Positions 20,918 to 34,661 of a stretch of DNA of 38,157 nt are shown here, piece by piece. Position 1 is the first letter of the stretch, and every line of letters begins with the position of its first letter. Where the stretch lies: positions 1-38,157 of the forward strand of contig CAMDFT010000025.1 of the NCBI GenBank assembly GCA_945897795.1. Reading direction: 5' to 3'. The notes under the pieces are model-generated. The model did no database searches. It was not told where the DNA came from and saw only the letters and a program-made list of their open reading frames with translations. The DNA comes from Limnohabitans sp. Rim8 (GTDB lineage Bacteria > Pseudomonadota > Gammaproteobacteria > Burkholderiales > Burkholderiaceae_C). Made by a program: the position numbers and the translations under genes.

Positions 20918-22294
20918 TTGCCACGCAGACATTTCTGGCTTTTTGCCTTTTCCACCCTGTTGCTTGGTGCCTGCTCGGGCACGCTGCCCACCAGCGAAGC
21001 ACCCCGGCCACCGGTGGTGTTTGTGCATGGCAATGGCGACTCCGCCGCCCTGTGGCAAAGCACGCTCTGGCGCTTTGAATCCAACGGCTGGCCGCGTGAT
21101 CGTTTGCATGCCATCGATGTGCCTTATCCCTTGGCGCGAGACGCCGACAACAAGCCTCAAGCCGGGCGCACTTCCACCGATGAGCACATGGCCTTTTTGC
21201 GCGCAGAGGTGCAGCAGGTCCTGAAACGCACGGGTGCTGCGCAGGTGGTCTTGGTGGGCAACTCGCGAGGGGGCAATGCCATTCGGAACTTCATCTGCAA
21301 CGGCGGCGGTCTAAATTTGGTCAGCCATGCGGTGCTGGGTGGCACGCCCAACCACGGTGTTCAGGCCATCTCCGGCGTCAATGAGGCCAATGAATTTTCT
21401 GGCACGGGCCCTTTTTTGAGTCAGCTCAATGCCCCCAAGAACGCGCAAGGCGACGAGGTGTGTGGCCCTGCCAAATGGCTGACCATCCGATCGGACAACA
21501 ACGACAAGTTTGCACAGCCCGATGGCCTGTGGATTGGCATGAAAGGCAAAGCCACCAACGTGACTTTTGCCGGCCCGGAACTCAAAGGGGCGACGAATGT
21601 GGTGATAGCCCGAATCGACCACCGCGAAACCTCTTACTCAGCGGCGGCTTTCGAGGCCACTTTCCGCTTCATCACCGGGCAAGCGCCCCAAGTGGTCATC
21701 CGACCTGAAACTGCTGTGGTGCTGAACGGCAAATTGGTCGGCTTGGGCTCGAACCCGCAGGACCCGAAAAGCGGTAATTACCCGAACAACTTGCCCCTGG
21801 CGGGCGCAAGCCTGACGGTGTATGCGGTGGACCCGCTCACGGGTCAGCGCCAGGGCGCTGCTGTGCACCGCAAAACCGCTGGTGCCGATGGCCTGTGGGG
21901 GCCGTTCAAGGCGCAGGCTCAAACGGCTTATGAGTTTGTCATCGAGGCCCAAGGCTATGCCACCACCCACATTTACCGAAGCCCGTTTCCTCGCTCCAGC
22001 GACATCGTTCACATGAAGCCCGAGCGCTTGGCCGAGGCCGACAGGTCGGCTGCGGCACTGGTCAGCTTTGTCCGGCCCCGTGGCTACTTTGACCCGCCGC
22101 GTGACAGCATGCGCCTGGACGGCAAGACGAGCTTGCCGGGTGTGCCCCCAGGCGCGGGCGTGGCCAGCAGCAAATTGCGTTTGGATGACAAAACCCAGCG
22201 CAGTGTGGCCGCAGAATTCAACGGCGAGCGCCTGGTCGGTTTGACATGGCCCTTGGCCGAGGGTCGCACCACGGTGCTGGAGTTGACTTATTGA
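20918..22294 (+). CDS. Lipoprotein alpha/beta-hydrolase (esterase/lipase-like)
   Basis: The frame is open from 20840. A TTG at 20918 gives a compact lipoprotein signal (PRRHFWLFAFSTLLLGAC), so I prefer that start; about 458 residues. The mature part opens with VVFVHGNGDSAALW, which supplies an oxyanion-hole HG, and has the nucleophile elbow LVGNSRGGNAIRNF. The GTPNHGVQAISG segment is typical of triacylglycerol-lipase-like alpha/beta hydrolases. The second half (from about residue 270) resembles a beta-rich carbohydrate/polymer-binding module and ends in VLELTY. It probably cleaves an ester at the cell surface; short-chain polyester or lipid substrates are possible but unproven. It converges with and overlaps the araC-type gene by 7 bp. 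Confidence 0.75.
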   Translation: MPRRHFWLFAFSTLLLGACSGTLPTSEAPRPPVVFVHGNGDSAALWQSTLWRFESNGWPRDRLHAIDVPYPLARDADNKPQAGRTSTDEHMAFLRAEVQQVLKRTGAAQVVLVGNSRGGNAIRNFICNGGGLNLVSHAVLGGTPNHGVQAISGVNEANEFSGTGPFLSQLNAPKNAQGDEVCGPAKWLTIRSDNNDKFAQPDGLWIGMKGKATNVTFAGPELKGATNVVIARIDHRETSYSAAAFEATFRFITGQAPQVVIRPETAVVLNGKLVGLGSNPQDPKSGNYPNNLPLAGASLTVYAVDPLTGQRQGAAVHRKTAGADGLWGPFKAQAQTAYEFVIEAQGYATTHIYRSPFPRSSDIVHMKPERLAEADRSAAALVSFVRPRGYFDPPRDSMRLDGKTSLPGVPPGAGVASSKLRLDDKTQRSVAAEFNGERLVGLTWPLAEGRTTVLELTY

Positions 22295-23301
22295 ATCTTG
22301 CCCAGTGTGGGCGTAGATTTTTTGCGGCTCTCCAAGACATCCAAGGTGGCAGAAGGCAGTTCGCCGAACAGCTTTTTGTAATCCTGCGCAAATTGGCTCA
22401 AATGCCAAAAACCCCAATGCGAGGCAATGTCCTGGATGGTGACGCCGGGCGCGGCCTGGCGCAGGGCGCGGCGCACGCTGTTCAGGCGCAGTGAGCGCAG
22501 GTACTTGATGGGCGTGGTGCCCAGCACGTCCTGAAAGCAGTAATTGAGCTTGCGACGGCTTGTGCCCACGCGGCTGCACACCTCTAAGATGGACAGCGGC
22601 TCGTCGGCGTGGCCCAACATCAACTCGCAGGCGCGGTCCACCAGTTTTTTGCGCCGCTCCAGGTTGGGCAACTCGGAGGTGTCGACCTGCGCAGGCAGGG
22701 CTTCAAGCCATTCCATCAAGATTTCGTCTCTCAGCTGGCGCAAGGCCTGCTCATCATGCTGACGGTTAGCCAGGGCGCTGGCCTGGTCCAGCACCGTGAG
22801 CTGCAGATCCCGAAGGATCTGTGCCTTGATGTCGGTGGTGGGCAGCACCAGTTGCTTTTCGAGCCAATGGGCCAGGGGCTTTTGGTACATGCGCTCCCAC
22901 AGCGGGTTCAGCAGGCTGCGGTTGACCACCACGGCAATCAGGGTGAAGTGGGGCGGGGTGGTCAGGTCCACCTCGTCGCCCTTGCCACACATGATGGCGT
23001 GGGCGGGCACCCGCTGGCCGTTGAAAAACAGGTCCGGAGAGTCTTGCAGCGCCATGGCAAACCCGTACACGCTGTCGTCGAGACGCCCGCGCTGGCGTAA
23101 GGCGATGCTGGTGTCTTCGCGCAGCAGCGTGACTTCGGGCAGTTGGACCTGGTGGATGCGCCCCTTGAATTGCCCCGGCGAGAGTTGTTCGTACTGCAGC
23201 GCCCAGCCTTGCTGAGCCAGAGCATGCTGGTCCATGTCTTGGGTGTCCAGCACCTGAACCCAGGGTGAAGAGGGGGAATGATGGGGGGCAGGCGTGCTCA
23301 T
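22288..23301 (-). CDS. AraC-family transcriptional regulator (EutR-like)
   Basis: A 337-residue regulator with an N-terminal sensing domain of about 220 residues and a C-terminal AraC helix-turn-helix pair. The DNA-binding part contains SILEVCSRVGTSRRKLNYCF, then GTTPIKYLRSLRLNSVRRAL, then HWGFWHLSQFAQDYKKLFGE, a layout that reminds me of EutR, the ethanolamine regulator. The chosen ATG at 23301 starts at MSTPAPHH; 66 further codons are open upstream but contain no domain. It is divergent from the amidotransferase-P450-ligase operon, 157 bp away, so it is the obvious candidate activator of that operon, probably with the substrate amine or an intermediate as ligand. Confidence 0.87.
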   Translation of the reverse strand: MSTPAPHHSPSSPWVQVLDTQDMDQHALAQQGWALQYEQLSPGQFKGRIHQVQLPEVTLLREDTSIALRQRGRLDDSVYGFAMALQDSPDLFFNGQRVPAHAIMCGKGDEVDLTTPPHFTLIAVVVNRSLLNPLWERMYQKPLAHWLEKQLVLPTTDIKAQILRDLQLTVLDQASALANRQHDEQALRQLRDEILMEWLEALPAQVDTSELPNLERRKKLVDRACELMLGHADEPLSILEVCSRVGTSRRKLNYCFQDVLGTTPIKYLRSLRLNSVRRALRQAAPGVTIQDIASHWGFWHLSQFAQDYKKLFGELPSATLDVLESRKKSTPTLGKIQ

Positions 23302-23458: not shown

Positions 23459-24187
23459 ATGAGCCTGCGCATTGCCGTTTTGCTGACCAACGACGACAAA
23501 TCTGCGTTTGCCGCGCATTTTCCGAACGACGGTCAAAAGGTGGTGCAGCTGCTGCAACCCTTGCGGCCCGACTGGACTTTTGAGGTGGTTTCGATCAAGG
23601 ACGGGGTGCTACCCGCTAGCCCCGAGGACTTTGACGGTTACGTCATTACCGGTAGCCCAGCCTCGGTCAACGACGACAGCCTTCCTTGGGTGGGTCAGTT
23701 GCTGGATTTCATCCGGGCCGTGCATGCCGGTCGCCAGCCGCTGATTGGCCTGTGCTTTGGCCACCAGGCGGTGGCTCGGGCGTTGGGTGGGCAGGTGGCG
23801 CGCAACGCCGCAGGCTGGGGCCTGGGCACCGCGCCCACGCACTGGCAGGCCGCACGCCCTTGGATGACGCCGCCTCAGGCCAGCACCACCTTGATGGCCG
23901 CGCACAACGAACAGGTCACCCGCATGCCCGAAGGCGCGGTGTGTCTGGGCGGCAGTGGCTTTTGCCCCATCGGCTCGATGCAAATCGGCCAGCACATCTG
24001 GACCACGCAGTTCCACCCCGAAATGCCACTGGTGTTCATGCAGGCTTTGCTGGGCTACCTGGACGACAAACTTGATGCCGACACGATGACCCGTGCCCAC
24101 ACCAGCCTCGCCAACGCCGCCGATGTGCCGTTGTTTGGGCAGTGGATGGCGCAATTTTTTGAACACGCAAGGAAAAACCCACAATGA
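23459..24187 (+). CDS. Class I glutamine amidotransferase-like hydrolase
   Basis: A 242-residue stand-alone GATase1 domain, similar to the GMP-synthase amidotransferase half. The catalytic triad is visible: GLCFGHQ with nucleophile Cys99, and QFHPEM with His186 and Glu188. There is no synthetase partner domain, so it likely hydrolyses a gamma-glutamyl amide, returning glutamate. PuuD in putrescine catabolism and AtdA2/TdnT in aniline oxidation are known class I amidotransferases with such a role, and here too the gene sits with a glutamine-synthetase-like ligase. Its stop overlaps the P450 ATG by 4 bp. It is the first gene of the operon. The motif around Cys99 is closer to GMP synthase than to PuuD. 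Confidence 0.85.
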   Translation: MSLRIAVLLTNDDKSAFAAHFPNDGQKVVQLLQPLRPDWTFEVVSIKDGVLPASPEDFDGYVITGSPASVNDDSLPWVGQLLDFIRAVHAGRQPLIGLCFGHQAVARALGGQVARNAAGWGLGTAPTHWQAARPWMTPPQASTTLMAAHNEQVTRMPEGAVCLGGSGFCPIGSMQIGQHIWTTQFHPEMPLVFMQALLGYLDDKLDADTMTRAHTSLANAADVPLFGQWMAQFFEHARKNPQ

Positions 24188-25449
24188 CCGTCTGGCACCC
24201 CAACGACGATGGCCTCGCCGACATCTCTAGCCACGACAGCTATGTGAATGGCACGCCGCACAACACTTTCAAGCGCCTGCGCGACGAAGACCCGATGGCC
24301 TGGTGCAACTGGGCCGATGGCAAGGGTTTTTGGTCGGTCACGCGGCATGCCGATATTTTGGAGCTCAACCGCAACCACCAGCGCTTGTCCTCGGCCCAGG
24401 GCATCCGCATGGAAGACCAGTCGCATGAAGAGTACATGGCGCGGCGGACCTTTCAGGAGACCGACCCACCCGAGCACACCCGCACCCGCATGCTGGTGGC
24501 CAAGGCCTTTTCCAAGCCCATGATGGCGTTGTACGAAGACCAGATCCGAGAACTCTGTGTTGGCATCCTTGACCAGGCCCTGGCGCTGGGCGAGTTTGAC
24601 GCCACGCACCACATTGCCCGCCAGCTGCCGATGCGCATGCTCGGGCGCATCGTGGGCCTGCCCGAAGAAGACCTGGACTGGCTGGTGGACAAGGGCGACG
24701 CGCTCATGGGCAACACCGACAGCGATTTCACCAGCCATGTGGTCGACAAGATGGACACCGAGGCCTACCGCTTCATGCCGTTTCGCTCGCCCGCCGGGGT
24801 TGACTTGTACGACTACGCAGCCCAGTTGATGGAACGCAAGCGCAGTGCGGGCGAAACCAATGGCGTGCTGCACCTGATCACCCAGCCCGACGCCCAGGGC
24901 AATGTGATCAGCGACACCGAGTTTCGCAACTTCTTTTGTCTGCTGGTGGCCGCGGGCAACGACACCACACGCTATTCGATCGCTGCCGCTTTGCACGCGC
25001 TGGCCAACCAGCCCGGCCTGATGCAGCAACTCAAGGCGGTGCAAGGCGAAGCCGCTTGGGAGGGCGTGGCCGACGAGTTCATCCGCTGGGCCTCACCCGC
25101 CACGCACTTTCGACGCACCGCGACCGAGGACTTCGAGTACCACGGCAAACAAGTCAAGGCGGGCGACAAGGTGCTGCTCTGGTTCATCTCGGGCAACCGT
25201 GACGAGCGCGCCTTTGACCGGCCGTTCACCGTCGACCTGAGCCGGGGCGTGAACCGCCACCTGGCGTTCGGGCAGGGCGGGGCGCATGCCTGCTTGGGCA
25301 TGTGGCTGGCCCGGCTGGAGTTGCGCGTCTTGATGCAAGAGCTGATCAAGCGGGTCGACCGCATCGAGCAAACGGGTGAGCACGCCTTTTTGCGATCCAA
25401 CTTTGTCTCGGGCATCAAACGCTTGCCCGTCCGCATGCACCTCATCTGA
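24184..25449 (+). CDS. Cytochrome P450 monooxygenase
   Basis: A soluble bacterial P450 of 421 residues, with no signal or membrane anchor. The I-helix oxygen-activation motif AAGNDTT is at residues 256-262, the K-helix ExxR is Glu298-Arg301, and the heme-binding loop FGQGGAHACLG has the thiolate ligand Cys370. Early sequence PHNTFKRLRDEDPMAWCNW and TDPPEHTRTRMLV are typical of class I bacterial P450s that use a ferredoxin, and a [2Fe-2S] ferredoxin gene follows two genes later. The substrate is unknown; placement between amidotransferase and glutamyl ligase suggests oxidation of an amine, possibly in gamma-glutamylated form. An AAGGA site lies inside the end of the preceding gene, and translation is coupled by an ATGA overlap. 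Confidence 0.95.
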   Translation: MTVWHPNDDGLADISSHDSYVNGTPHNTFKRLRDEDPMAWCNWADGKGFWSVTRHADILELNRNHQRLSSAQGIRMEDQSHEEYMARRTFQETDPPEHTRTRMLVAKAFSKPMMALYEDQIRELCVGILDQALALGEFDATHHIARQLPMRMLGRIVGLPEEDLDWLVDKGDALMGNTDSDFTSHVVDKMDTEAYRFMPFRSPAGVDLYDYAAQLMERKRSAGETNGVLHLITQPDAQGNVISDTEFRNFFCLLVAAGNDTTRYSIAAALHALANQPGLMQQLKAVQGEAAWEGVADEFIRWASPATHFRRTATEDFEYHGKQVKAGDKVLLWFISGNRDERAFDRPFTVDLSRGVNRHLAFGQGGAHACLGMWLARLELRVLMQELIKRVDRIEQTGEHAFLRSNFVSGIKRLPVRMHLI

Positions 25450-25460
25450 AAGGAACCACC

Positions 25461-26753
25461 ATGTCAAATGTTCAAGAACGCCTGCGGGTGCTGTATTGCG
25501 ACCACCTGGCCATTGCGCGGGGCAAATACGTCACGCTCAAGCCGGGTCAGGGCGGCGGTGCCCGTTTTTGCCGGGGCACTTTTGGCGTCACTTACGAAAA
25601 AGAGCTGATCCCGGCCCCGGGTGCGATGGTCATGGAGGGCCTGCCCGACATGGAGGCCGTCTACACCCCCGAGGACATCCGCCCCGGCTGGCAGCCCTTC
25701 ACCCAAGTGGCGATTGGTGACCTGAAAGCCAACGACGGCACCCCCCTGCCCATGTGCGGGCGCAGCGCCTTGAAACGCGCCGTGGCCGACTGGCAGGCCA
25801 TGGGGTACGAGCCGATGGTGGGCATTGAGCTCGAAGCCTTTGCCTTCCAGATCGAGCCCGACGGCTCGCTCAAGCCTTATGACACGCCCGCGGCCCATGT
25901 GTATTCCACAGGTCCCTTTTCCGACCCCAGGGGCTTCACCGATGCCCTGTGGGAAAAAGCCACGGCAGCGGGCTTTCGCATCGACAGCATGAACACCGAA
26001 TACGATGCGCCCCAGTTCGAGTTCACGCTCACCTACGACCGCGCCGTCGAGGCGGTGGACGACATCTTCTTGTTCCGTCTGCTGGCGCGTGAAGTCGCTT
26101 TCCAGCACGGCATCGTGCTGACCTTCATGCCCAAGCCCATCCTCACGGTGGGCGGCAGCGGTGTGCACATCAACTTCAGCCTGCGCGACGGCCAAGGCCA
26201 CAACGCGATCTCGGGCGGGCACGACGCCAGCCAGTTCAACGCCCTCACACTGGGCTGCACCGCCGGACTCATGCACCACCACCAGGCGCTGGCGGGCTTG
26301 TTGGCCCCCAGCACCAATTCTTACCAACGCCTGCAACCGGCCAGCCTGTCTGGCTTTTGGAAAAACTGGGCCGTGGACCACCGGGGCGTGACGGTGCGCC
26401 TGTCGGCCGAAACAGGTCCGGGTGCTCGCATTGAGCACCGCATGGGCGACGCGGCGGCCAACCCCTATACCCACACCGCCGCAGTCTTGCAGGCGGCGCG
26501 TCTGGGTGTGGTCAATGGCTATGCGCTGCAGCCAGCCGAGACGGGTGACTGTTTGGAAAACAAAGATGCCACCGAAAGCGTGTCCGAATCCTTGGCCGGT
26601 GCCCTGGACGCGCTCGAAGCCGACACGGCCCTGACCCAGGACCTGGGCGAAGGCCTGGTGGCCAACCATGTGGGCATCAAGCGCCACGAGATCGAACGCA
26701 CCGCAGGCCTGCAAGGCGACGCGCTGCGCGACTACTACATCCGATTCATCTGA
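25461..26753 (+). CDS. Glutamine synthetase-like gamma-glutamyl-amine ligase
   Basis: A 430-residue protein of the glutamine synthetase superfamily. Recognisable blocks are GIELEAFAF and EYDAPQFEFT (metal-binding Glu), GSGVHINFSL (nucleotide/glutamate region), APSTNSYQRL and IEHRMGDAAANPY. The adenylylation site typical of GlnA (NLYDLP) is absent, and the N-terminal beta-grasp region is short, so housekeeping ammonia assimilation is unlikely. PuuA (putrescine), IpuC (isopropylamine) and AtdA1/TdnQ (aniline) are known relatives that ligate an amine to the gamma-carboxyl of glutamate, and the neighbouring amidohydrolase supports that reading. AAGGA lies 8 nt before the ATG; the P450 stop is 11 bp upstream. 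Confidence 0.88.
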   Translation: MSNVQERLRVLYCDHLAIARGKYVTLKPGQGGGARFCRGTFGVTYEKELIPAPGAMVMEGLPDMEAVYTPEDIRPGWQPFTQVAIGDLKANDGTPLPMCGRSALKRAVADWQAMGYEPMVGIELEAFAFQIEPDGSLKPYDTPAAHVYSTGPFSDPRGFTDALWEKATAAGFRIDSMNTEYDAPQFEFTLTYDRAVEAVDDIFLFRLLAREVAFQHGIVLTFMPKPILTVGGSGVHINFSLRDGQGHNAISGGHDASQFNALTLGCTAGLMHHHQALAGLLAPSTNSYQRLQPASLSGFWKNWAVDHRGVTVRLSAETGPGARIEHRMGDAAANPYTHTAAVLQAARLGVVNGYALQPAETGDCLENKDATESVSESLAGALDALEADTALTQDLGEGLVANHVGIKRHEIERTAGLQGDALRDYYIRFI

Positions 26754-26771
26754 TTTGAAAGAACCCAAACC

Positions 26772-27086
26772 ATGCCCCAAGTGCACTGGATCATGCGCAA
26801 CGGCGATCGCGTGAGCGACGACGTGAACGATGGCACCAACCTGATGGACGCCGCGCAGATGAACGGCATCCCTGGCGTGGCGGGCGAGTGCGGTGGCTGC
26901 CTGTCATGCGCCACCTGCCACGTCTATGTGGATGAAGCCTGGCTGGCCTCCTGTCCGCCAATGGCCGACGTGGAAAACGCCATGCTCGGCATCGTCATAG
27001 CGCCCCGCCAAAGCGGCAGCCGCCTGAGCTGCCAGCTGATCGCATCCAGTGCGCTGGATGGCATCGTGTTGCATGTGCCGGATTGA
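26772..27086 (+). CDS. [2Fe-2S] ferredoxin, adrenodoxin/putidaredoxin type
   Basis: A 104-residue ferredoxin. The cluster ligands follow the adrenodoxin spacing: Cys-x5-Cys-x2-Cys in ECGGCLSCATCHVYV, with the fourth Cys in RLSCQLIA. An additional Cys sits between the first two ligands (GGCLS), and another in ASCPPM. Negative residues around VDEAW and MADVENAM would form the usual docking face for P450 and reductase. It should pass electrons to the P450 of this operon. No ferredoxin reductase gene is seen in the window, so a reductase from elsewhere must serve. It is separated from the ligase gene by 18 bp and from the aldehyde dehydrogenase by 42 bp. Confidence 0.93.
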   Translation: MPQVHWIMRNGDRVSDDVNDGTNLMDAAQMNGIPGVAGECGGCLSCATCHVYVDEAWLASCPPMADVENAMLGIVIAPRQSGSRLSCQLIASSALDGIVLHVPD

Positions 27087-27128
27087 ATTTTGATAAACCC
27101 CTGATGCCTTGAACGCTTGCAGAAAAAA

Positions 27129-28613
27129 ATGAAACAAGAACACATCGACGCGCTGCGTCACCAAATCATTCCTGATCAGGGCTTGTTGATCGACGGCCAG
27201 TGGGCGGCTGCGGCATCGGGGCAGACGATGCCGGTGGTCTCGCCCATCGACGGGCAGACCCTGTGCGCCCTGGCCGCCGCTGGGGCTCAGGATGTCGACC
27301 ACGCTGTGCAGGCGGCGCGACGCACTTTTGAACAGGGCGTGTGGTCGCGCATGGCGCCAGCCGAGCGCAAGAAGGTGTTGCACCGCATTGCCGACCGCAT
27401 CGAGGCCCACCACGCCGAGCTGGCGGTGCTGGGCGTGCGCGATAACGGCACCGAAATTGCCATGGCCTGGAAGGCCGAGCCGGGCAGCGCGGCCGGCACC
27501 TTCCGCTACTACGCCGAGTGTGTGGACAAGATCAACGGCGAGATCGCCCCCACGCCCGAGGGCACCTTGGGGCTGATCCACAAAGAAGCGGTCGGCGTGG
27601 TTGCGGCCATCGTGCCGTGGAACTTTCCACTCATGATCGGTGCCTGGAAGATCGCGCCCGCGCTGGCAGCAGGCAACTCGGTCGTGCTCAAACCTTCCGA
27701 AGACGCGTCACTGTCTTTGCTGCGCCTGGCGCAGCTGTGTCTGGACGCGGGCTTGCCCCCGGGCGTGCTCAACGTGGTCACCGGCACAGGCGCAGAGGCG
27801 GGTGAGGCGCTGGCGCGGCACATGGACGTGGACATCCTGACTTTCACGGGCTCCGGCCCGGTGGGGCGTCTGTTGCTCAAGGCCTCGGCCGATTCCAATC
27901 TCAAGCGGGTTTACCTGGAGCTGGGCGGTAAGTCCCCCAACATTGTTTTTGACGATGCAGTCGATCTGGCGCAGGCCGCCAAGGTGTCGGCCATGGGCAT
28001 CTTTCGCAACAGTGGGCAAGTGTGTGTGGCGGGCTCGCGCCTTTTGGTGCATCGCTCGGTGTATGACGAGTTTGTGGAACGCCTGCAAAAGATCGCCGCC
28101 AATTTGCTCGTGGGTGACCCGCTGGATGTGACGACCGACATCGGCGCGGTCAGCAGCGCACGCCAGTTGGCCCGCAACCAGAGCATGCTGGCGCGTGCAC
28201 TGGAGCAGGGCGCGCGTCTGCGCACCGGCGGTCAGGTGATCGCGCCCGTGCCCGGTGGCCAGTACATGAGCCCCGCCGTGCTCGATGGCGTTCAGCCCGA
28301 GATGGACATTGCCCGGCAGGAAGTTTTTGGACCGGTGCTGGCCGTCATGCCGTTTGACGATGAGGCCCATGCGGTGCGTCTGGCCAATGGCACCGAATAT
28401 GGGCTGGCCGCAGGGGTGTGGACCGGCAGTCTGTCCCGTGCCCACCGCATGGTGCGCGCCATCAAGGCCGGGCTGGTGCATGTCAACACCTATGGCGGCC
28501 CGGACATCACCGTGCCGCTGGGCGGCGTGCGGCAGTCGGGCAATGGGCACGACAAGTCGATGCACGCCATGGACAAATACCTTGACCTGAAAACGGCCTG
28601 GATTCAGCTTTGA
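27129..28613 (+). CDS. NAD(P)-dependent aldehyde dehydrogenase (PuuC-like)
   Basis: A 494-residue aldehyde dehydrogenase. The oxyanion/cofactor block VPWNFPL, the general base in LELGGKSPNIVF (Glu264) and the nucleophile in NSGQVCVAGSR (Cys299) are all present, with the C-terminal PLGGVRQSGNGHDKS motif of the gamma-aminobutyraldehyde/betaine-aldehyde group. It probably oxidises an amino aldehyde or its gamma-glutamyl derivative to the acid. PuuC of putrescine catabolism is the closest role I can name. The ATG at 27129 is used; a TTG four codons upstream is possible. Only a weak ribosome-binding site is visible. It lies 42 bp after the ferredoxin and 19 bp before the aminotransferase. Confidence 0.92.
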   Translation: MKQEHIDALRHQIIPDQGLLIDGQWAAAASGQTMPVVSPIDGQTLCALAAAGAQDVDHAVQAARRTFEQGVWSRMAPAERKKVLHRIADRIEAHHAELAVLGVRDNGTEIAMAWKAEPGSAAGTFRYYAECVDKINGEIAPTPEGTLGLIHKEAVGVVAAIVPWNFPLMIGAWKIAPALAAGNSVVLKPSEDASLSLLRLAQLCLDAGLPPGVLNVVTGTGAEAGEALARHMDVDILTFTGSGPVGRLLLKASADSNLKRVYLELGGKSPNIVFDDAVDLAQAAKVSAMGIFRNSGQVCVAGSRLLVHRSVYDEFVERLQKIAANLLVGDPLDVTTDIGAVSSARQLARNQSMLARALEQGARLRTGGQVIAPVPGGQYMSPAVLDGVQPEMDIARQEVFGPVLAVMPFDDEAHAVRLANGTEYGLAAGVWTGSLSRAHRMVRAIKAGLVHVNTYGGPDITVPLGGVRQSGNGHDKSMHAMDKYLDLKTAWIQL

Positions 28614-28632
28614 AAATCACACAAGGAAAACG

Positions 28633-29997
28633 ATGAACACCGACCAACTCAAGGCCGACAACGCCCAATACCTGTGGCACCCCATGGCCCATCCGGGGGC
28701 GATGAAAAAATCAACGCCCGACATCATTGCCAAGGGCGAGGGCTGCTGGATCTGGGACGTGGACGGCCACAAGATGCTGGACGGCGTGGGGGGCCTGTGG
28801 GCCTGCAACCTGGGCCACAGCAACAAGCCGGTACGCGACGCCATCGTGGCGCAGATGGACGAGCTGCCCTTTTACAACGTGTTTCGCGGCACCACCCATG
28901 TGCGGGCGATCGAGTTGTCCAAACGCCTGGTGCAGACGATGGAGCCTGAGGGCGTGGCCACGGTGATGTTTTCCACCGGCGGCTCGGACGCGGTGGAGGG
29001 TGCGCTCAAAGTGGCGCGCCAGTACTGGAAGCTCAAGGGCCAGGCAGACCGCTTCAAGTTCATCAGCCTGCGCCAGGGCTACCACGGCGTGCACTTTGGC
29101 GGCATGAGCGTGAACGGCAACACCAATTTCCGCCGTGCTTACGAGCCACTGCTGCCCGGCTGCTTTCACGTCGACACGCCTTGGGCGTACCACAACCCCT
29201 ACACCGATGACCCGATCCGCTTGGGCGAAATTTGTGCCGAAATGCTCGAGCGCGAAATTGTGTTCCAAGGGCCGGACACGGTGGCGGCTTTTATTGCCGA
29301 GCCGGTGCAGGGCGCGGGTGGCGTGATCGTGCCGCCGCCCAACTACTGGCCGCTGGTACGCCAGATTTGCGACAAGTACGGTGTGCTCTTGATTGCCGAC
29401 GAGGTGGTGACCGGCTTTGGCCGCAGCGGCGAAATGTTTGGCACGCGCCTGTGGGGTGTGAATGCCGACATGTGGTGCTTGGCCAAAGGCATCTCCTCGG
29501 GGTACATCCCGCTGGGGGCCACCGCCATCAACCACCGCATCGCCGACGTGTTTGACGCCGACACCACAGGCACCGCTTCGGTCTCGCATGGCTACACCTA
29601 CAGTGCCCACCCGATCGCGGCTGCAGCGGCGCTGGCCACGCTCGACCAGATCGAGGCGTTGGACATTCCGGGCAACGCCGCCCGTGTGGGTGCACACCTG
29701 CAGAGCCGATTGGGCAAGCTGGTCGATACCTGCAGCTTTGTGGGCGATGTGCGCGGCGTGGGCCTGATGCTGGGCATCGAGATGGTGAGCGACAAAGCCA
29801 AGCGAACCCCGATGACCCGCAGCAGCGACGACCCGGCGCGGGTCGCCAAGGCGGCTTACAAGGCGGGTTTGATGGTGCGCATTTCGGGCCCCAACATGAT
29901 CCTGTCACCACCGCTGATCATCACCCTTGAGGAGGTCGACTTCATGTGCGATGTGCTCGAAGCCGCATTTGCCGCCGTGCAGGAGGGCCGCGCATGA
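28633..29997 (+). CDS. Class III aminotransferase (omega-amino acid type)
   Basis: A 454-residue PLP-dependent transaminase of class III. It has the cofactor region STGGSDAVEGALK, the PLP-binding DEVVTGFGRSG, and the Schiff-base lysine in CLAKGISSGY (Lys285). An N-terminal LWHPMAHP block and the length are typical of omega-amino-acid:pyruvate and beta-alanine:pyruvate transaminases. It would move an amino group from an omega-amino acid to pyruvate or 2-oxoglutarate and release a semialdehyde, in the PuuE position of the route. AAGGA lies just before the ATG, and its stop overlaps the next gene (ATGA). Beta-alanine is attractive as substrate because a malonyl-CoA synthetase is downstream, but that is inference. 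Confidence 0.91.
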   Translation: MNTDQLKADNAQYLWHPMAHPGAMKKSTPDIIAKGEGCWIWDVDGHKMLDGVGGLWACNLGHSNKPVRDAIVAQMDELPFYNVFRGTTHVRAIELSKRLVQTMEPEGVATVMFSTGGSDAVEGALKVARQYWKLKGQADRFKFISLRQGYHGVHFGGMSVNGNTNFRRAYEPLLPGCFHVDTPWAYHNPYTDDPIRLGEICAEMLEREIVFQGPDTVAAFIAEPVQGAGGVIVPPPNYWPLVRQICDKYGVLLIADEVVTGFGRSGEMFGTRLWGVNADMWCLAKGISSGYIPLGATAINHRIADVFDADTTGTASVSHGYTYSAHPIAAAAALATLDQIEALDIPGNAARVGAHLQSRLGKLVDTCSFVGDVRGVGLMLGIEMVSDKAKRTPMTRSSDDPARVAKAAYKAGLMVRISGPNMILSPPLIITLEEVDFMCDVLEAAFAAVQEGRA

Positions 29998-31253
29998 AGA
30001 GCCCCGTCATCTTGATCGTCGGCACGGTGGACACCAAGAGCGACGAGATCGGCTTCATGCGCGAGCAGGTGCAGGCCGCTGGCGGGCAGGCACTCATCAT
30101 GGACGTGGGCGTGCTGGCCAAGGGCCAGGTGGTCCCGGACTTCGCCAACACCGAGGTCGCGCAGGCGGCAGGCGTGACACTTCAGCAAGTCATGGACAGC
30201 GGTGACGAAAACAGCGCCATGGCCCTGATGGCGCAAGGCGCATCGGCCCTGGCGGTCCAACTGCAGCGCGAGGGCCGCATGGACGGGCTGCTGGTGCTGG
30301 GCGGCACCATGGGCACCGACTTGGCGCTCGATGTGGCCAGCAGTTTGCCGTTGGGCGTGCCCAAGGTGGTGTTGTCCACCGTGGCGTTTTCGCCCTTGTT
30401 GCCGCCCGAGCGCATGCCGCCCGATTTGATGATGGTGCTGTGGGCCGGGGGCTTATATGGCCTCAACAGCCTGTGCCAGTCGGCCTTGGCGCAAGCCGCA
30501 GGGGCAGTGGTGGGGGCTTGTCTTGTGGCGCGAGCGCCGCGTTTTGCGCGGCCCGTCGTGGGCATGACCTCGCTCGGCTCGAGCTGTCTGAAATACATGG
30601 TGCAACTCAAGCCCGAGCTGGACCAGCGCGGGTTTGACCTGGCCGTGTTCCACACCACGGGCATGGGCGGCAGGGCATTTGAATCGCTGGCCGCGCAAGG
30701 CCAGTTCGCCTGTGTGATGGACTTCAGCTTGCAAGAGATGGTCAACCAGATGGGCGGCTCGGTCGTGAGCGCCGGGCCTGACCGCCTGATGGGCGCGTGC
30801 CTGAAAGGCGTGCCGATGATCGTGGCCCCGGGTGCCACCGACTTGGTGGATTACCCGGCCTGGGGGCAGATGCCCGAGCGCTTTGCAGGCCGTCCCTCGC
30901 ACGACCACAACCGCCTGATCGCTTCGGTGGGCATCGACGCCGATATGCGCCGTGAATTCGCCCGCGAGCTGGCCAGTCGCCTGCGTCAGGCGCAAGGCCC
31001 GGTGCACTTGGTGCTGCCTTTGCAAGGCATTCAAGAGTGGGACCGGGTCGGTGCGCCGCTGCACGATGCTGAAGGCCTGGCCGCGATGATGGACGAAATG
31101 GCGCAATGCGACTGGGGCACAGCCGAAGTCTCGCGCATCGACGCGCACATCAACGATGCGGCGTTTGTGCAGCAGGTACTGAAAGTGTTTGACGATTGGC
31201 TGGCCCGTGGGCTGGTGGTGCCTGCTGTGGGCCAGAAAGCCGCCCATGTCTGA
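29994..31253 (+). CDS. Tm-1-like ATP-binding domain protein (UPF0261)
   Basis: A 419-residue protein of the UPF0261 family, whose N-terminal domain is related to the plant virus-resistance protein Tm-1. The N-terminus reads VILIVGTVDTKSDEIGFM. Further family blocks are LVLGGTMGTDLALDVA, VVLSTVAF, TSLGSSCLKYM, FHTTGMGGRAFE and VAPGATDLVDYPAWG. Bacterial members are often encoded next to a TIM-barrel PEP-hydrolase-like protein; that partner is missing here. The biochemical role is not established. A strong GGAGG site precedes the ATG at 29994, which overlaps the aminotransferase stop by 4 bp, so it is firmly in the operon. Its end overlaps the HAD gene by 8 bp. Confidence 0.85.
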   Translation: MKSPVILIVGTVDTKSDEIGFMREQVQAAGGQALIMDVGVLAKGQVVPDFANTEVAQAAGVTLQQVMDSGDENSAMALMAQGASALAVQLQREGRMDGLLVLGGTMGTDLALDVASSLPLGVPKVVLSTVAFSPLLPPERMPPDLMMVLWAGGLYGLNSLCQSALAQAAGAVVGACLVARAPRFARPVVGMTSLGSSCLKYMVQLKPELDQRGFDLAVFHTTGMGGRAFESLAAQGQFACVMDFSLQEMVNQMGGSVVSAGPDRLMGACLKGVPMIVAPGATDLVDYPAWGQMPERFAGRPSHDHNRLIASVGIDADMRREFARELASRLRQAQGPVHLVLPLQGIQEWDRVGAPLHDAEGLAAMMDEMAQCDWGTAEVSRIDAHINDAAFVQQVLKVFDDWLARGLVVPAVGQKAAHV

Positions 31254-31914
31254 TGCCGTGAAACCCGAAGACAAGGCCTTGATTCTGGACTTTGGTGGCG
31301 TGATCAGCCGCACCCTGTTTGAAACCCACGCCCTGAGCGAAGCGGCTTTGGGCCTGGCTGCCGGCACGCTCACCTGGCAAGGCCCGTTTGCGCCCGAGAC
31401 CGATGCCCTGTGGCAAGCCATGCAGGCCGATCAGATCAGTGAGCGCGATTACTGGATGCAACGCACCCGCGAGGTTGGGCGTTTGTTGGGCGAAGACTGG
31501 ACCGAGATGCAAACCTTTGTGCAGCGTGCCCGAGGAGCCGATGTGGCGGCTGTGATCCGTCCTGAGGCGGTGGCGGCCATCCAGCAGGCCAAGGCGTTGG
31601 GTTACAAGCTGGGCATTTTGTCCAATGAGTTGGACCTGTTTTACGGCGCGGATTTTCGCGATCGTTTGCCCTTGCTAAAGCAGTTTGATGTGATCGTGGA
31701 TGCCACCTACACCCAGATCCTCAAACCCGATCCTCGCGCTTACCAGGCTTGTGTGCGGGCCTTGGGGGTGCGGGCCGAGCATGCGGTGTTTGTGGACGAC
31801 CAGCTGCGCAACGTGGCGGGTGCGCAGCGCTTTGGCCTGCCAGTGGTGCATCTGGATGTTTGCCAACCCGGTGGCGGTTTTGCCAAAGCCCTGCAAATGC
31901 TGGCGGCGCTCTGA
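31246..31914 (+). CDS. HAD-superfamily hydrolase (subfamily IA)
   Basis: A 222-residue haloacid-dehalogenase-like hydrolase. Motif I is LDFGGVISR, with the nucleophilic Asp but Gly in place of the second Asp; motif II is in LGILSNELD, motif III is KPDPRAYQ and motif IV is VFVDDQLRNV. The DxGG variant is shared with YihX-like and epoxide-hydrolase-N-terminal-like members, so phosphatase or dehalogenase activity are both open. A helical cap is present between motifs I and II. It starts 8 bp inside the end of the Tm-1-like gene and is the last of the tightly packed operon; 109 bp follow before the binding-protein gene. Confidence 0.85.
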   Translation: MSDAVKPEDKALILDFGGVISRTLFETHALSEAALGLAAGTLTWQGPFAPETDALWQAMQADQISERDYWMQRTREVGRLLGEDWTEMQTFVQRARGADVAAVIRPEAVAAIQQAKALGYKLGILSNELDLFYGADFRDRLPLLKQFDVIVDATYTQILKPDPRAYQACVRALGVRAEHAVFVDDQLRNVAGAQRFGLPVVHLDVCQPGGGFAKALQMLAAL

Positions 31915-32023
31915 TGCCGTGTCGAGGGGGTGGGGGGCTGCGGGGGTCTGTGACACCCCGGTGCAGGGCTGAGTTTGCAAAAACTTTATGATGCTGTTTC
32001 TGAACAAAACCAGGAGACACGAC

Positions 32024-33019
32024 ATGAACCACTTGAACCTATGGGGCCAACGCCGCGATTTTTTGAAGGCCATGGCCGCCGTGACGGGCTCGCTGCCCCT
32101 GTGGGCCCAAGCCCAAAGCAGCTGGCCTTCCAAACCGGTGAACCTGATCGTGCCTTTCCCGGCAGGCGGGGGCACCGATGCGTTTGCCCGGCCCATGTCG
32201 GCCCAGTTTGCCAAGCTGACGGGCAAACAACTCATCATTGACAACCGGGGCGGTGCCGGTGGCACGCTGGGCGCAGGCATTGCGGCCAAGGCAGCGCCGG
32301 ATGGCTACAACCTGTTCATGGGGGCGGTTCACCACACCATTGCGCCCAGCATGTACCCCCGTCTCGACTATGACCTGGAACGCGACTTGGTGCCCTTGAT
32401 CCAGGTGGCCAGCGTGCCCCAGGTGCTGGTGGTCAATCCCAAAAAAGTGCAGGCGGCCGATTTCAAGGCCTTCCTCGATTTCGTGAAAAAGAACCCCGGC
32501 CGACTGAACTATGGCTCCGCCGGGGGCGGCACTTCGCACCACTTGGCGGGCGAGTTGTTCAAGCTGCAGACCCAAACTTTCATCACGCACATTCCTTACC
32601 GGGGTGCTGGCCCGGCCCTGCAAGACCTGATTGCCGGCAACGTGGACATGATGTTCGATGGCTTGGGCTCATCGGCTGCACACATCAAGGGCGGTCGCAT
32701 CAAGGCCTTGATGGTCTCGGGGGCCAAGCGCAATGCGGCTTTTCCAGATGTGCCATGTTCTGCCGAGCTGGGGTTGCCCGATTACACCGTGTCCACCTGG
32801 TATGGCGTATGGGCCCCCAAGGGCACGCCCGCCGATGCACAGGCCAAGGCCATCGAAGAGCTGCGCCGCTCTTGCCAGACCGACGAGGCCAAGGCCGTGT
32901 GGGCCAACCAAGGGGCTGATTTTCCCAACCTCACGGGCGGGCAGTTTGATGCCTTCATCAAAAAAGAGCTGACCAAATGGGCTCAGGTGGTCAAAGCCTC
33001 AGGGGCCAAACTCGACTGA
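32024..33019 (+). CDS. Bug/TctC-type tripartite tricarboxylate transporter substrate-binding protein, Tat-exported
   Basis: A 331-residue periplasmic binding protein of the Bug family, greatly expanded in Burkholderiales. The signal peptide has a twin-arginine motif (QRRDFLKAM, residues 9-17) and cleavage near AQA, so export is by Tat. The mature part opens with WPSKPVNLIVPFPAGGGTDAFAR, followed by GAGGTLGAGIAAKAAPDG and HIPYRGAGPALQDLIAG, all Bug hallmarks. Bug proteins bind carboxylates, amino acids or small aromatics. No TctA/TctB membrane genes are nearby. AGGAG lies 7 nt before the ATG at 32024. It lies between the operon and the malonyl-CoA synthetase, so its ligand may be a pathway acid. 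Confidence 0.92.
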   Translation: MNHLNLWGQRRDFLKAMAAVTGSLPLWAQAQSSWPSKPVNLIVPFPAGGGTDAFARPMSAQFAKLTGKQLIIDNRGGAGGTLGAGIAAKAAPDGYNLFMGAVHHTIAPSMYPRLDYDLERDLVPLIQVASVPQVLVVNPKKVQAADFKAFLDFVKKNPGRLNYGSAGGGTSHHLAGELFKLQTQTFITHIPYRGAGPALQDLIAGNVDMMFDGLGSSAAHIKGGRIKALMVSGAKRNAAFPDVPCSAELGLPDYTVSTWYGVWAPKGTPADAQAKAIEELRRSCQTDEAKAVWANQGADFPNLTGGQFDAFIKKELTKWAQVVKASGAKLD

Positions 33020-33040
33020 GTTGGCCAATCGACAGCCAGG

Positions 33041-33078
33041 GGCCCTTGCATCTGCGGTGTGACGGGCCTTATTTTTTT
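33041..33078 (+). terminator. Possible terminator between the Bug gene and the malonyl-CoA synthetase gene
   Basis: GGCCC (33041-33045) pairs with GGGCC (33064-33068), extended by two G-T pairs, around an 18-nt loop, followed after one A by seven T residues (33072-33078). The stem is short, so read-through to the ligase gene is possible. Confidence 0.4.
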
Positions 33079-33095
33079 GTTTGCACTTTGAAACC

Positions 33096-34661
33096 ATGAG
33101 CTCCAACAACTTGTTTTCTGCCCTGCGGGCTGCTTTCCCTGCCGACCTGACTGCGGTGGCGGTCGAGACCGACGAAGGCCTGCGCTACAGCTGGCAAGAC
33201 CTCGACCGCGCCACGGCCATGATGGCCAATTTGCTGCAGTCACTCGATTTACCCGAAGGCAGCCGGGTGGCGGTGCAGGTTGAAAAATCGGTCGAAGCGA
33301 TGGTGTTGTATTTGGCATGCTTGCGCGCTGGTTGCGTGTTCTTGCCGCTCAACACCGCCTACCAAAGCGCCGAGATCGAATACTTCATTGGCAACGCCGA
33401 GCCTGCCGTGGTGGTGTGCAGTCCAGCCAATTTCGGCTGGGTCAGCAAGATTGCCTTCAAGGCGGGCACGCAGCATGTCTTCACGCTGGGCGATGACCGC
33501 ACGGGCAGCTTGCTCGAGCGAGCCGCGCACCACAGCGACCTGCACACACCTGCGGCGCGCCAGGCCGATGACCTGGCCGCCATTTTGTACACCAGCGGCA
33601 CCACCGGACGCAGCAAAGGCGCGATGCTGACCCACGGCAACTTGCTGAGCAATGCCGTCACGCTCAAGGATTACTGGGGCTGGAAGGCGACCGGAGGGCC
33701 TACAGGCCAGGGGGACGTGCTCATCCATGCGCTCCCCATCTTCCATGTGCACGGCTTGTTCGTGGCCATCCATGGCGCCTTGATCAACGGCAGCAAGATG
33801 ATTTGGATGGCCAAATTCGACCCGAAACGCGTCATCGCCCGCATGCAAGAGGCCACCGTGTTCATGGGCGTGCCCACGCTGTATGTGCGTATGCTGGCCG
33901 AGCCCACCCTCGACAAGGCTGCGGTGAAAAACATGCGCCTGTTCATTGCCGGGTCCGCCCCCTTGTTGATCGAGACCTTCACCGAATGGCAGCAGCGCAC
34001 AGGCCACACCATCCTGGAGCGTTACGGCATGAGCGAGACCGCCATGCTGACCTCCAACCCCTATGCCGCCGACAAGCGGTATGCCAAGCAGTCCGAGCGA
34101 CGTGGCGGCACGGTGGGCTTTCCTTTGCCGGGCGTGTCTTTGCGGGTGTTGGGTGACGATGGGCAAGCCTTACCGGTGGGTGAGATCGGTGGCATCCAAG
34201 TCAAGGGACCCAATGTGTTCAAGGGCTATTGGCGCATGCCTGAGAAAACGGCCGAAGAGTTCACCACCGACGGCTTCTTCAAAACCGGCGATGTGGGCAA
34301 GGTCGATGAGCGCGGCTACGTGGTCATCGTCGGCCGCAGCAAGGACCTGATCATCAGCGGCGGCTACAACGTGTACCCGGCCGAGATCGAGGGCTACATC
34401 AATGAGATGACCGGCGTGGCCGAAAGCGCGGTGGTGGGTGTGGCGCACCCCGACTTTGGCGAGGTGGGCGTGGCCGTGGTCATTGCCAAGCCTGGGGCCA
34501 CTGTGCAGCCTGAGGCCATCCTGGCCGAGCTCAAGGCCAAGCTGGCCAACTTCAAGATTCCCAAGCGCTGCTTTGTGGTGGGTGAATTGCCGCGCAACAC
34601 CATGGGCAAGGTTCAAAAAAACCTGCTGCGCGAGCAACACAAAAACATGTTCTTGGCCTGA
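33096..34661 (+). CDS. Malonyl-CoA synthetase-like acyl-CoA ligase (MatB family)
   Basis: A 521-residue ANL-superfamily ligase that forms an acyl-CoA from acid, ATP and CoA. Motifs are YTSGTTGRSKGAMLTHGN (phosphate loop), YGMSETAML, FFKTGDVGKVDERGYV and GRSKDLIISGGYNVYPAEIE, and the acyl-transfer lysine lies in NTMGKVQKN. Length and overall similarity fit malonyl-CoA synthetases (MatB), which convert malonate or methylmalonate; other short-chain acids cannot be ruled out without the binding-pocket residues. The ATG at 33096 is used. If the aminotransferase makes malonate semialdehyde from a beta-amino acid, this ligase could take the resulting malonate to malonyl-CoA. No clear ribosome-binding site is seen. 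Confidence 0.85.
   Translation: MSSNNLFSALRAAFPADLTAVAVETDEGLRYSWQDLDRATAMMANLLQSLDLPEGSRVAVQVEKSVEAMVLYLACLRAGCVFLPLNTAYQSAEIEYFIGNAEPAVVVCSPANFGWVSKIAFKAGTQHVFTLGDDRTGSLLERAAHHSDLHTPAARQADDLAAILYTSGTTGRSKGAMLTHGNLLSNAVTLKDYWGWKATGGPTGQGDVLIHALPIFHVHGLFVAIHGALINGSKMIWMAKFDPKRVIARMQEATVFMGVPTLYVRMLAEPTLDKAAVKNMRLFIAGSAPLLIETFTEWQQRTGHTILERYGMSETAMLTSNPYAADKRYAKQSERRGGTVGFPLPGVSLRVLGDDGQALPVGEIGGIQVKGPNVFKGYWRMPEKTAEEFTTDGFFKTGDVGKVDERGYVVIVGRSKDLIISGGYNVYPAEIEGYINEMTGVAESAVVGVAHPDFGEVGVAVVIAKPGATVQPEAILAELKAKLANFKIPKRCFVVGELPRNTMGKVQKNLLREQHKNMFLA

Follow-up and report, generated by a model that had tools for sequence, protein, structure and literature searches.

An operon of Limnohabitans with a predicted gamma-glutamyl amine ligase and a cytochrome P450: a proposed route from arylethylamines to homoprotocatechuate

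Introduction

Glutamylation of an amine followed by its oxygenation is a known opening of amine catabolism. According to the sections of PMC11335346 considered here, aniline and 1-naphthylamine are glutamylated and then oxygenated by dioxygenase systems. The isopropylamine (Ipu) pathway, in the part of PMC6776027 that covers it, comprises a glutamine-synthetase-like ligase, a cytochrome P450, a ferredoxin, a ferredoxin reductase, a postulated amidotransferase and later dehydrogenases. For cyclic amines, the relevant portion of PMC9477822 describes mycobacterial piperidine and morpholine operons with a PipA/MorA-type P450 and a ferredoxin, as well as a Gulosibacter glutamine synthetase gene that adjoins the P450 genes bioI and pipA, as judged by locus numbers. 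Here, we analyze an operon of Limnohabitans sp. Rim8 in which a ligase of the glutamine synthetase fold is encoded together with a P450, a ferredoxin, a class I glutamine amidotransferase (GATase)-fold hydrolase, an aldehyde dehydrogenase and a class III aminotransferase. The operon lies on contig CAMDFT010000025.1; the window, that is, the whole stretch of 38,157 nucleotides that was analyzed, belongs, as contig 25, to an assembly of 3.26 Mb with a completeness of 87.39%.

The operon has features in common with several of these systems. As in the AtdA, Tdn and NpaA systems, at least in the sections of PMC11335346 cited above, a glutamine-synthetase-like ligase would act on an aromatic amine and an oxygenase would yield a catechol-type diol that undergoes ring cleavage; the aniline set also includes a GAT-like enzyme, as the window operon includes a GATase. 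However, aniline-type systems use a Rieske dioxygenase and not a P450, and their substrates carry the nitrogen directly on the ring and would need no transaminase or dehydrogenase before cleavage. The Ipu system likewise has ligase, P450, ferredoxin and amidotransferase together, as far as the cited part of PMC6776027 shows, but its substrate is an alkyl amine; the piperidine and morpholine operons, which share the P450 and ferredoxin, differ in acting on cyclic amines. The Puu pathway of Escherichia coli resembles the window operon in its gamma-glutamyl amine ligase, PuuC-type dehydrogenase, hydrolase and aminotransferase, whereas its flavin oxidase PuuB has no counterpart in the window operon, relatives of which have aromatic genes nearby. 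The Hpa/Hpc meta-cleavage pathway is the proposed downstream route, and relatives have HpaD-, HpaE-, HpaF-, HpaG- and HpaI-type genes in linkage with the ligase and P450 genes, but its usual entry enzyme, 4-hydroxyphenylacetate 3-monooxygenase (HpaBC), is not encoded in the window operon.

A preliminary description of this DNA stated that no complete set of this kind had been described. This was too strong, given the ligase, P450, ferredoxin and amidotransferase of the isopropylamine pathway in the cited part of PMC6776027. The strategy of glutamylation and oxygenation is known for aniline, 1-naphthylamine and, with a P450, isopropylamine, and it is the arylethylamine variant that would be new: among the papers listed in a literature search, with subscription papers outside its scope, none was found to describe gamma-glutamyl-tyramine catabolism or an arylethylamine version.

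Results and discussion

Proposed function of the operon

The operon (Table 1) probably serves the conversion of an arylethylamine, most likely tyramine, which would be glutamylated, hydroxylated on the ring, freed and oxidized to 3,4-dihydroxyphenylacetate. It appears quite likely that an arylethylamine is converted by way of a gamma-glutamyl intermediate into homoprotocatechuate; tyramine as the substrate, with hydroxylation of the ring, has somewhat less than an even chance. The proposal builds on gene content, ligase residues and linkage in relatives, from which we infer the substrate, the order of the steps and the site of P450 attack.

In the first step, the ligase would join glutamate to an aromatic biogenic amine whose side chain has two carbons (tyramine in the most likely case, with dopamine and close relatives as possible alternatives). 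The P450, together with the [2Fe-2S] ferredoxin and a ferredoxin reductase that is presumably encoded elsewhere in the genome, outside the operon, would hydroxylate the ring, so that gamma-glutamyl-tyramine would become gamma-glutamyl-dopamine. The GATase-fold hydrolase would then release dopamine and glutamate, the aminotransferase would convert dopamine to 3,4-dihydroxyphenylacetaldehyde, and the aldehyde dehydrogenase would oxidize the latter to 3,4-dihydroxyphenylacetate (homoprotocatechuate), the predicted substrate of homoprotocatechuate meta-cleavage (HpaD, E, F, G, H and I).

The ligase is predicted to differ from glutamine synthetase

In a MAFFT alignment, the window ligase keeps E129, E131, E212, E220, H269, R321, R339, R344, E357 and R359 of E. 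coli GlnA, which we take to serve the ATP, metal and glutamate sites, whereas D50, Y179 and E327, which we take to form the ammonia site, are replaced by C, V and L. The columns of D50 and E327 are C and L in the window ligase and in six aligned relatives, the D50 column being less certain due to its position in a gappy region of the alignment. The three ammonia-site columns contain P, V and Y in gamma-glutamylputrescine synthetase (PuuA) and C, T and W in IpuC. With its catalytic residues retained and its ammonia pocket gone, the ligase is not expected to be an ordinary glutamine synthetase and is predicted to be a gamma-glutamyl amine ligase, in agreement with the preliminary description. 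It scores 176.5 bits against the PuuA model NF045547 and does not reach the cut-off of 650, and its match to the solved chain 8wwu, which we take to be NpaA1, scores 105 bits. In a tree of 31 rows (row own_L001 not included), 23 proteobacterial core ligases form one group with support of 100/100, and PuuA, IpuC and GlnA fall outside it; the deeper branching is unsure because the branches are long.

Linkage to homoprotocatechuate genes

When the genome collection was scanned with the ligase, 92 loci were confirmed; the best 80, near-duplicates such as L057 and L058 included, were kept and their genes labeled by tblastn with representative proteins. They comprise 34 Limnohabitans-type loci (L014-L046 and L068; ligase identity about 89-97%) and 46 other loci. 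A ring-cleaving dioxygenase gene is present at 12 of the 46 (HpaD at seven, LigB at six, one with both); at L053 and L066, LigB was labeled at 29-30% identity, with confirmation by Pfam for L053. Representative proteins exceed the NCBIfam cut-offs, with HpaE at 757.8 bits (cut-off 638; L084) and HpaD at 409.8 bits (cut-off 321; L053). CHMI is above its Pfam cut-off at L084; HpaG-like and HpaI-like neighbors score below the NCBIfam cut-offs. The LigB type is accompanied by FAH-family and acetoacetate-decarboxylase-family genes at four loci (L050, L051, L065 and L087), and plasmids of Novosphingobium, Streptomyces canus, Embleya and S. lunaelactis carry the same set in the vicinity of the ligase gene. 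Two unrelated dioxygenases thus occur near one ligase-P450 pair, which argues that the product is a catechol. At L053:1797-3745, and likewise in some other clusters, LigB-type and glyoxalase-type dioxygenase genes lie side by side.

In L137, a same-strand run contains hpaG, a decarboxylase gene, hpaD, an unassigned gene, hpaE, hpaF, the ligase, P450 and GATase genes, followed by Tct genes and an aminotransferase gene; its HpaE (775.5 bits) and HpaD (386.2 bits) are both over the cut-offs. In L144, hpaG, hpaD, hpaE, hpaF, UPF0261, dehydrogenase, Tct, aminotransferase, amidotransferase, P450, ligase and ferredoxin genes are found within 20 kb. L145 is similar, and both contain seven window-operon families, the exception being the HAD family. 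Among 11 ligase-free HpaE regions, L149 has the aminotransferase and dehydrogenase beside hpa genes and L146 the aminotransferase only, which suits a role of these enzymes after deglutamylation. Further LigB labels in the HpaE regions are of 24-32% identity, and hpaE labels near 40% identity represent generic dehydrogenases. In L131, an additional gene that separates those of HpaE and HpaD was considered as a hydroxylase and rejected, as it is a PIN-domain gene with no match among solved structures.

An aromatic amino acid (pyridoxal phosphate) decarboxylase gene occurs at 9 of the 46 non-Limnohabitans loci. Two copies compared with solved structures matched DOPA decarboxylase 7xin best (387 and 360 bits), followed by tyrosine decarboxylase 1 and aromatic-L-amino-acid decarboxylases.

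At the genome level, 149 genomes from the family of the Shimia genome G065, the source of L053, were searched, and 36 contained the ligase at an E value of 1e-60 or better, eight of these ligases being 45-51% identical; 44 of the 113 ligase-free genomes were sampled evenly. HpaE over its cut-off is present in 35 of the 36 ligase-bearing genomes and in 10 of the 44 ligase-free ones (Fisher p 2.5e-12, uncorrected for kinship, as is the following value). When the eight genomes with the 45-51% identical ligases are set aside, it is found in 27 of 28 (Fisher p 1.7e-10). Among 24 genomes behind the loci, three of which are also among the 36, 20 have HpaE over the cut-off and the other four a LigB module beside the P450.

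Conservation of the gene set

The preliminary description left it to a comparison of genomes whether these families stay together or are scattered. They are conserved together: the ligase, ferredoxin, dehydrogenase, aminotransferase and UPF0261 genes co-occur at 32 of the 34 Limnohabitans-type loci, so the set is not a chance neighborhood, and the remaining two contigs end inside the ligase gene. The P450 and amidotransferase genes are present at 33 and 31 of the 34 loci, respectively, the missing genes falling at contig ends, and the HAD gene is present at 30. The pairing of P450 and ferredoxin alongside the ligase is also kept in relatives, with the P450 at 44, the amidotransferase at 33 and the ferredoxin at 26 of the 46 other loci. 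Within the genus, a full P450 match of at least 92% identity was found in 14 of 36 genomes (the window's own included) and a fragment in one more. An aminotransferase orthologue of at least 93% identity accompanies it in 13 of these 14 and occurs in none of the other 22 (best match at most 51%); the fourteenth genome is G016, in which the contig ends in the ligase gene.

Conserved regions of the P450 and its partners

Conservation was assessed in alignments selected by length and identity (84 P450, 90 ligase, 74 GATase and 63 ferredoxin rows), which contain many close Limnohabitans copies. In the P450, the heme ligand Cys370, the I-helix motif AGNDTT and the ExxR pair Glu298/Arg301 are nearly invariant, as are a charged B-C region (G73, I74, R75, E77, D78, Q79, R87 and R88) and the RSNF motif at 404-407. 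The B-C stretch is missing from six P450 paralogues of Limnohabitans and one relative of the same order and from the P450 of the pTC1 region, and it differs in Streptomyces and Embleya P450 relatives. Such P450 regions touch the substrate, and the B-C and RSNF regions may recognize the glutamyl tag. A second P450 with a ferredoxin in Limnohabitans (L194-L197, 31-34% identical) was rejected as an extra copy, since its B-C motif differs; the ligase was not found in these stretches.

A ferredoxin reductase gene, not present in the window operon, is found at 5 of the 34 Limnohabitans-type loci, where its presence would make a class I P450 chain complete. The ferredoxin residues Cys40, Cys46, Cys49 and Cys87 are nearly invariant, as are Cys99, His186 and Glu188 of the GATase, the best match of which among solved structures is gamma-glutamyl peptidase 1 (53.7 bits).

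Ring cleavage in Limnohabitans and observations that disagree with the proposal

The glyoxalase-type HpaD is over the cut-off in none of the 36 genus genomes of Limnohabitans, and CHMI is present in 33, each time with a LigB gene as its neighbor on the contig. G007, one of the genomes with the window operon, has a full homoprotocatechuate operon elsewhere; in this region, HpaR, HpaG-C, HpaE, HpaD_Fe, HpaH and HpaI are over the NCBIfam cut-offs, with HpaG-N below its cut-off and CHMI over the Pfam cut-off. By tblastn, G034, G025 and the operon-free G028 resemble this region. The genus thus has a homoprotocatechuate operon, which does not follow the distribution of the window operon.

Several observations weigh against the proposed function. 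The homoprotocatechuate genes are nearly genus-wide in Limnohabitans and do not track the window operon, and no CHMI, no HpaD over the cut-off and no large LigB were found in the window's own 87% complete assembly. Seven of the 27 loci of at least 16 kb carry no hpa, LigB or FAH label, and the other 20 include loose labels such as dehydrogenases near 40% identity. The ligase occurs without the P450 at L061, despite 9 kb of upstream sequence, and without an adjacent P450 in S. lunaelactis. Of the 36 ligase-bearing genomes in the family survey, the P450 was confirmed for only part, although all nine ligase loci that were fetched have it. The decarboxylase is not specific to the ligase, being present in 12 of 35 ligase-bearing and 3 of 11 ligase-free HpaE regions.

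The HpaB family, finally, whose role the P450 might take over, does not serve as a discriminator. An HpaB-family gene is present in 10 of the 24 locus-bearing genomes (24 of 25 were covered, L070 being left out), and it is absent from all 36 genus genomes, whether or not they bear the operon. Beside HpaE, it turned up in one of the 35 ligase-bearing regions, where the match is 31% identical, and in none of the 11 ligase-free ones; several of these HpaE regions are cut by contig ends. We had considered the absence of HpaB as proof of 3-hydroxylation by the P450, and this argument was dropped because the absence occurs with and without the ligase or operon.

Alternative functions

One alternative to the tyramine route retains the end product and the genomic neighbors but starts from another arylethylamine, either 3-methoxytyramine or a similar methoxylated amine, with the P450 as an O-demethylase, or phenylethylamine hydroxylated once. 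In Ruegeria sp. TM1040, paaABCD, which encode phenylacetyl-CoA epoxidase, lie next to the locus (L094:5103-8901), and 29 of the 36 genus genomes have PaaA/PaaC-family genes over the cut-off. We nevertheless consider such a substrate rather unlikely, as the decarboxylase in the clusters suggests that a free aromatic amino acid is the source, and the paa linkage comes from this one annotated locus.

The preliminary description proposed a Puu-like pathway in which the P450 replaces PuuB and may oxidize the carbon next to the nitrogen. In such a pathway, the dehydrogenase would act on the glutamylated or freed aldehyde, and the hydrolase would follow as in the Puu pathway. The gene families are indeed similar in outline, and no flavin oxidase family was detected among the eight operon genes in the Pfam scan. 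Attack next to the nitrogen of gamma-glutamyl-dopamine would likewise give 3,4-dihydroxyphenylacetaldehyde, but it would make the conserved transaminase needless. For the dehydrogenase, the PuuC-like label holds in that the PuuC model NF007352 is the best NCBIfam match, but not at the level of assignment, since the score of 547.7 bits is below the cut-off of 850 (StyD, 468.5 versus 850); its best match among solved structures is KauB. The aminotransferase, presented earlier as the counterpart of PuuE, is assigned instead to PRK07481 (706.8 bits, cut-off 575), and the ligase falls far below the PuuA cut-off, as noted above. The scanned neighbors are homoprotocatechuate and general genes, although no search was aimed at polyamine genes. 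Because many orthologous loci lie among ring-cleavage genes, hydroxylation of the ring suits the P450 better than oxidation next to the nitrogen, and deglutamylation would more likely precede the transaminase and dehydrogenase steps. A Puu-like function is thus unlikely.

An Ipu-type pathway, in which the P450 would hydroxylate a methyl group of the gamma-glutamyl amide of isopropylamine or a similar small alkyl amine, is very unlikely: the enzyme classes are equal in the cited part of PMC6776027 and in the pTC1 region, but the pTC1 ligase and P450 are only 29% and 27% identical to those of the window, the pTC1 P450 lacks the B-C motif, the ligases are separated from IpuC at 100/100, and the loci are linked to aromatic ring cleavage.

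Implications of the tyramine route

More tentatively than the function of the operon itself, a widespread aquatic route may be envisaged in which tyramine is masked, hydroxylated by a dedicated P450 family that recognizes the tag, and released as an obligate dopamine intermediate. With similar reserve, this route might bypass both tyramine oxidase and HpaBC, and in some relatives the tyramine might derive from tyrosine through the clustered decarboxylase. If the tyramine route is correct, the strategy of glutamylation, oxygenation and hydrolysis would extend to aromatic biogenic amines, and a substrate class could be named for a P450 family for which we found none. Algae and decaying protein could then supply freshwater Limnohabitans and marine Shimia relatives with usable tyramine or dopamine, and the present labeling of these ligases as members of the glutamine synthetase family would be corrected.

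Operon layout and neighboring genes

The six genes of the preliminary description were confirmed as open frames on the forward strand with the families given in Table 1, all Pfam matches being above the gathering cut-offs. The spacing is also as described: the GATase and P450 genes overlap by 4 bp, and the subsequent gaps are 11, 18, 30 and 19 bp, with the 42 bp gap reported earlier obtained if the dehydrogenase starts at an inner ATG. These overlaps and short gaps are compatible with one transcript, and the operon is longer than was noted, since two further coupled genes extend it: the ATG of the UPF0261 gene overlaps the aminotransferase stop codon by 4 bp, and that of the HAD gene overlaps the UPF0261 stop codon by 8 bp.

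Table 1. Predicted genes of the operon and its divergent upstream neighbor in the window
Feature	Coordinates	Strand	Support
AraC-family regulator	22288..23301	-	Pfam HTH_18, 81 bits; orthologues at 26/34 Limnohabitans-type loci
Class I GATase-fold hydrolase, proposed gamma-glutamyl amide hydrolase	23459..24187	+	PF00117, 51.3 bits
Cytochrome P450, proposed ring hydroxylase of gamma-glutamylated amine	24184..25449	+	PF00067, 63.6 bits
Glutamine-synthetase-fold ligase, predicted gamma-glutamyl amine ligase	25461..26753	+	Gln-synt_C PF00120, 233.7 bits
[2Fe-2S] ferredoxin, proposed P450 electron donor	26772..27086	+	Fer2 PF00111, 33.3 bits
Aldehyde dehydrogenase, proposed arylacetaldehyde dehydrogenase	27117..28613	+	Aldedh PF00171, 553.8 bits
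Class III aminotransferase PRK07481, proposed arylethylamine transaminase	28633..29997	+	Aminotran_3 PF00202, 329.4 bits
UPF0261/Tm-1-like protein	29994..31253	+	PF06792 and PF23189
HAD-family hydrolase	31246..31914	+	PF00702

UPF0261 also accompanies the aminotransferase and dehydrogenase in the hpa clusters of other bacteria (L144 and L145), and the HAD gene is also found at L072 and L149. The AraC-type gene lies upstream of the operon in divergent orientation; its open frame extends to 23499, and the likely start codon at 23301 was picked by eye.

Downstream of the operon (31988-34661), TctC and MatB genes resemble a malonate utilization operon, and L017:15516-17701 adds a GntR regulator and a malonyl-CoA decarboxylase. 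TctC and MatB were considered as pathway genes (malonic semialdehyde from beta-alanine) and rejected; they are read as a neighboring malonate operon because L017 has the GntR and malonyl-CoA decarboxylase genes there and the cluster of the latter has members at 12 loci (11 besides L017).

In some Limnohabitans operons, the ferredoxin and dehydrogenase genes are separated by a gene that encodes a C5-cytosine DNA methylase or else an HNH endonuclease (L014:5099-6058 and L033:10648-11496), as if this gap served as an insertion site for restriction-modification genes.

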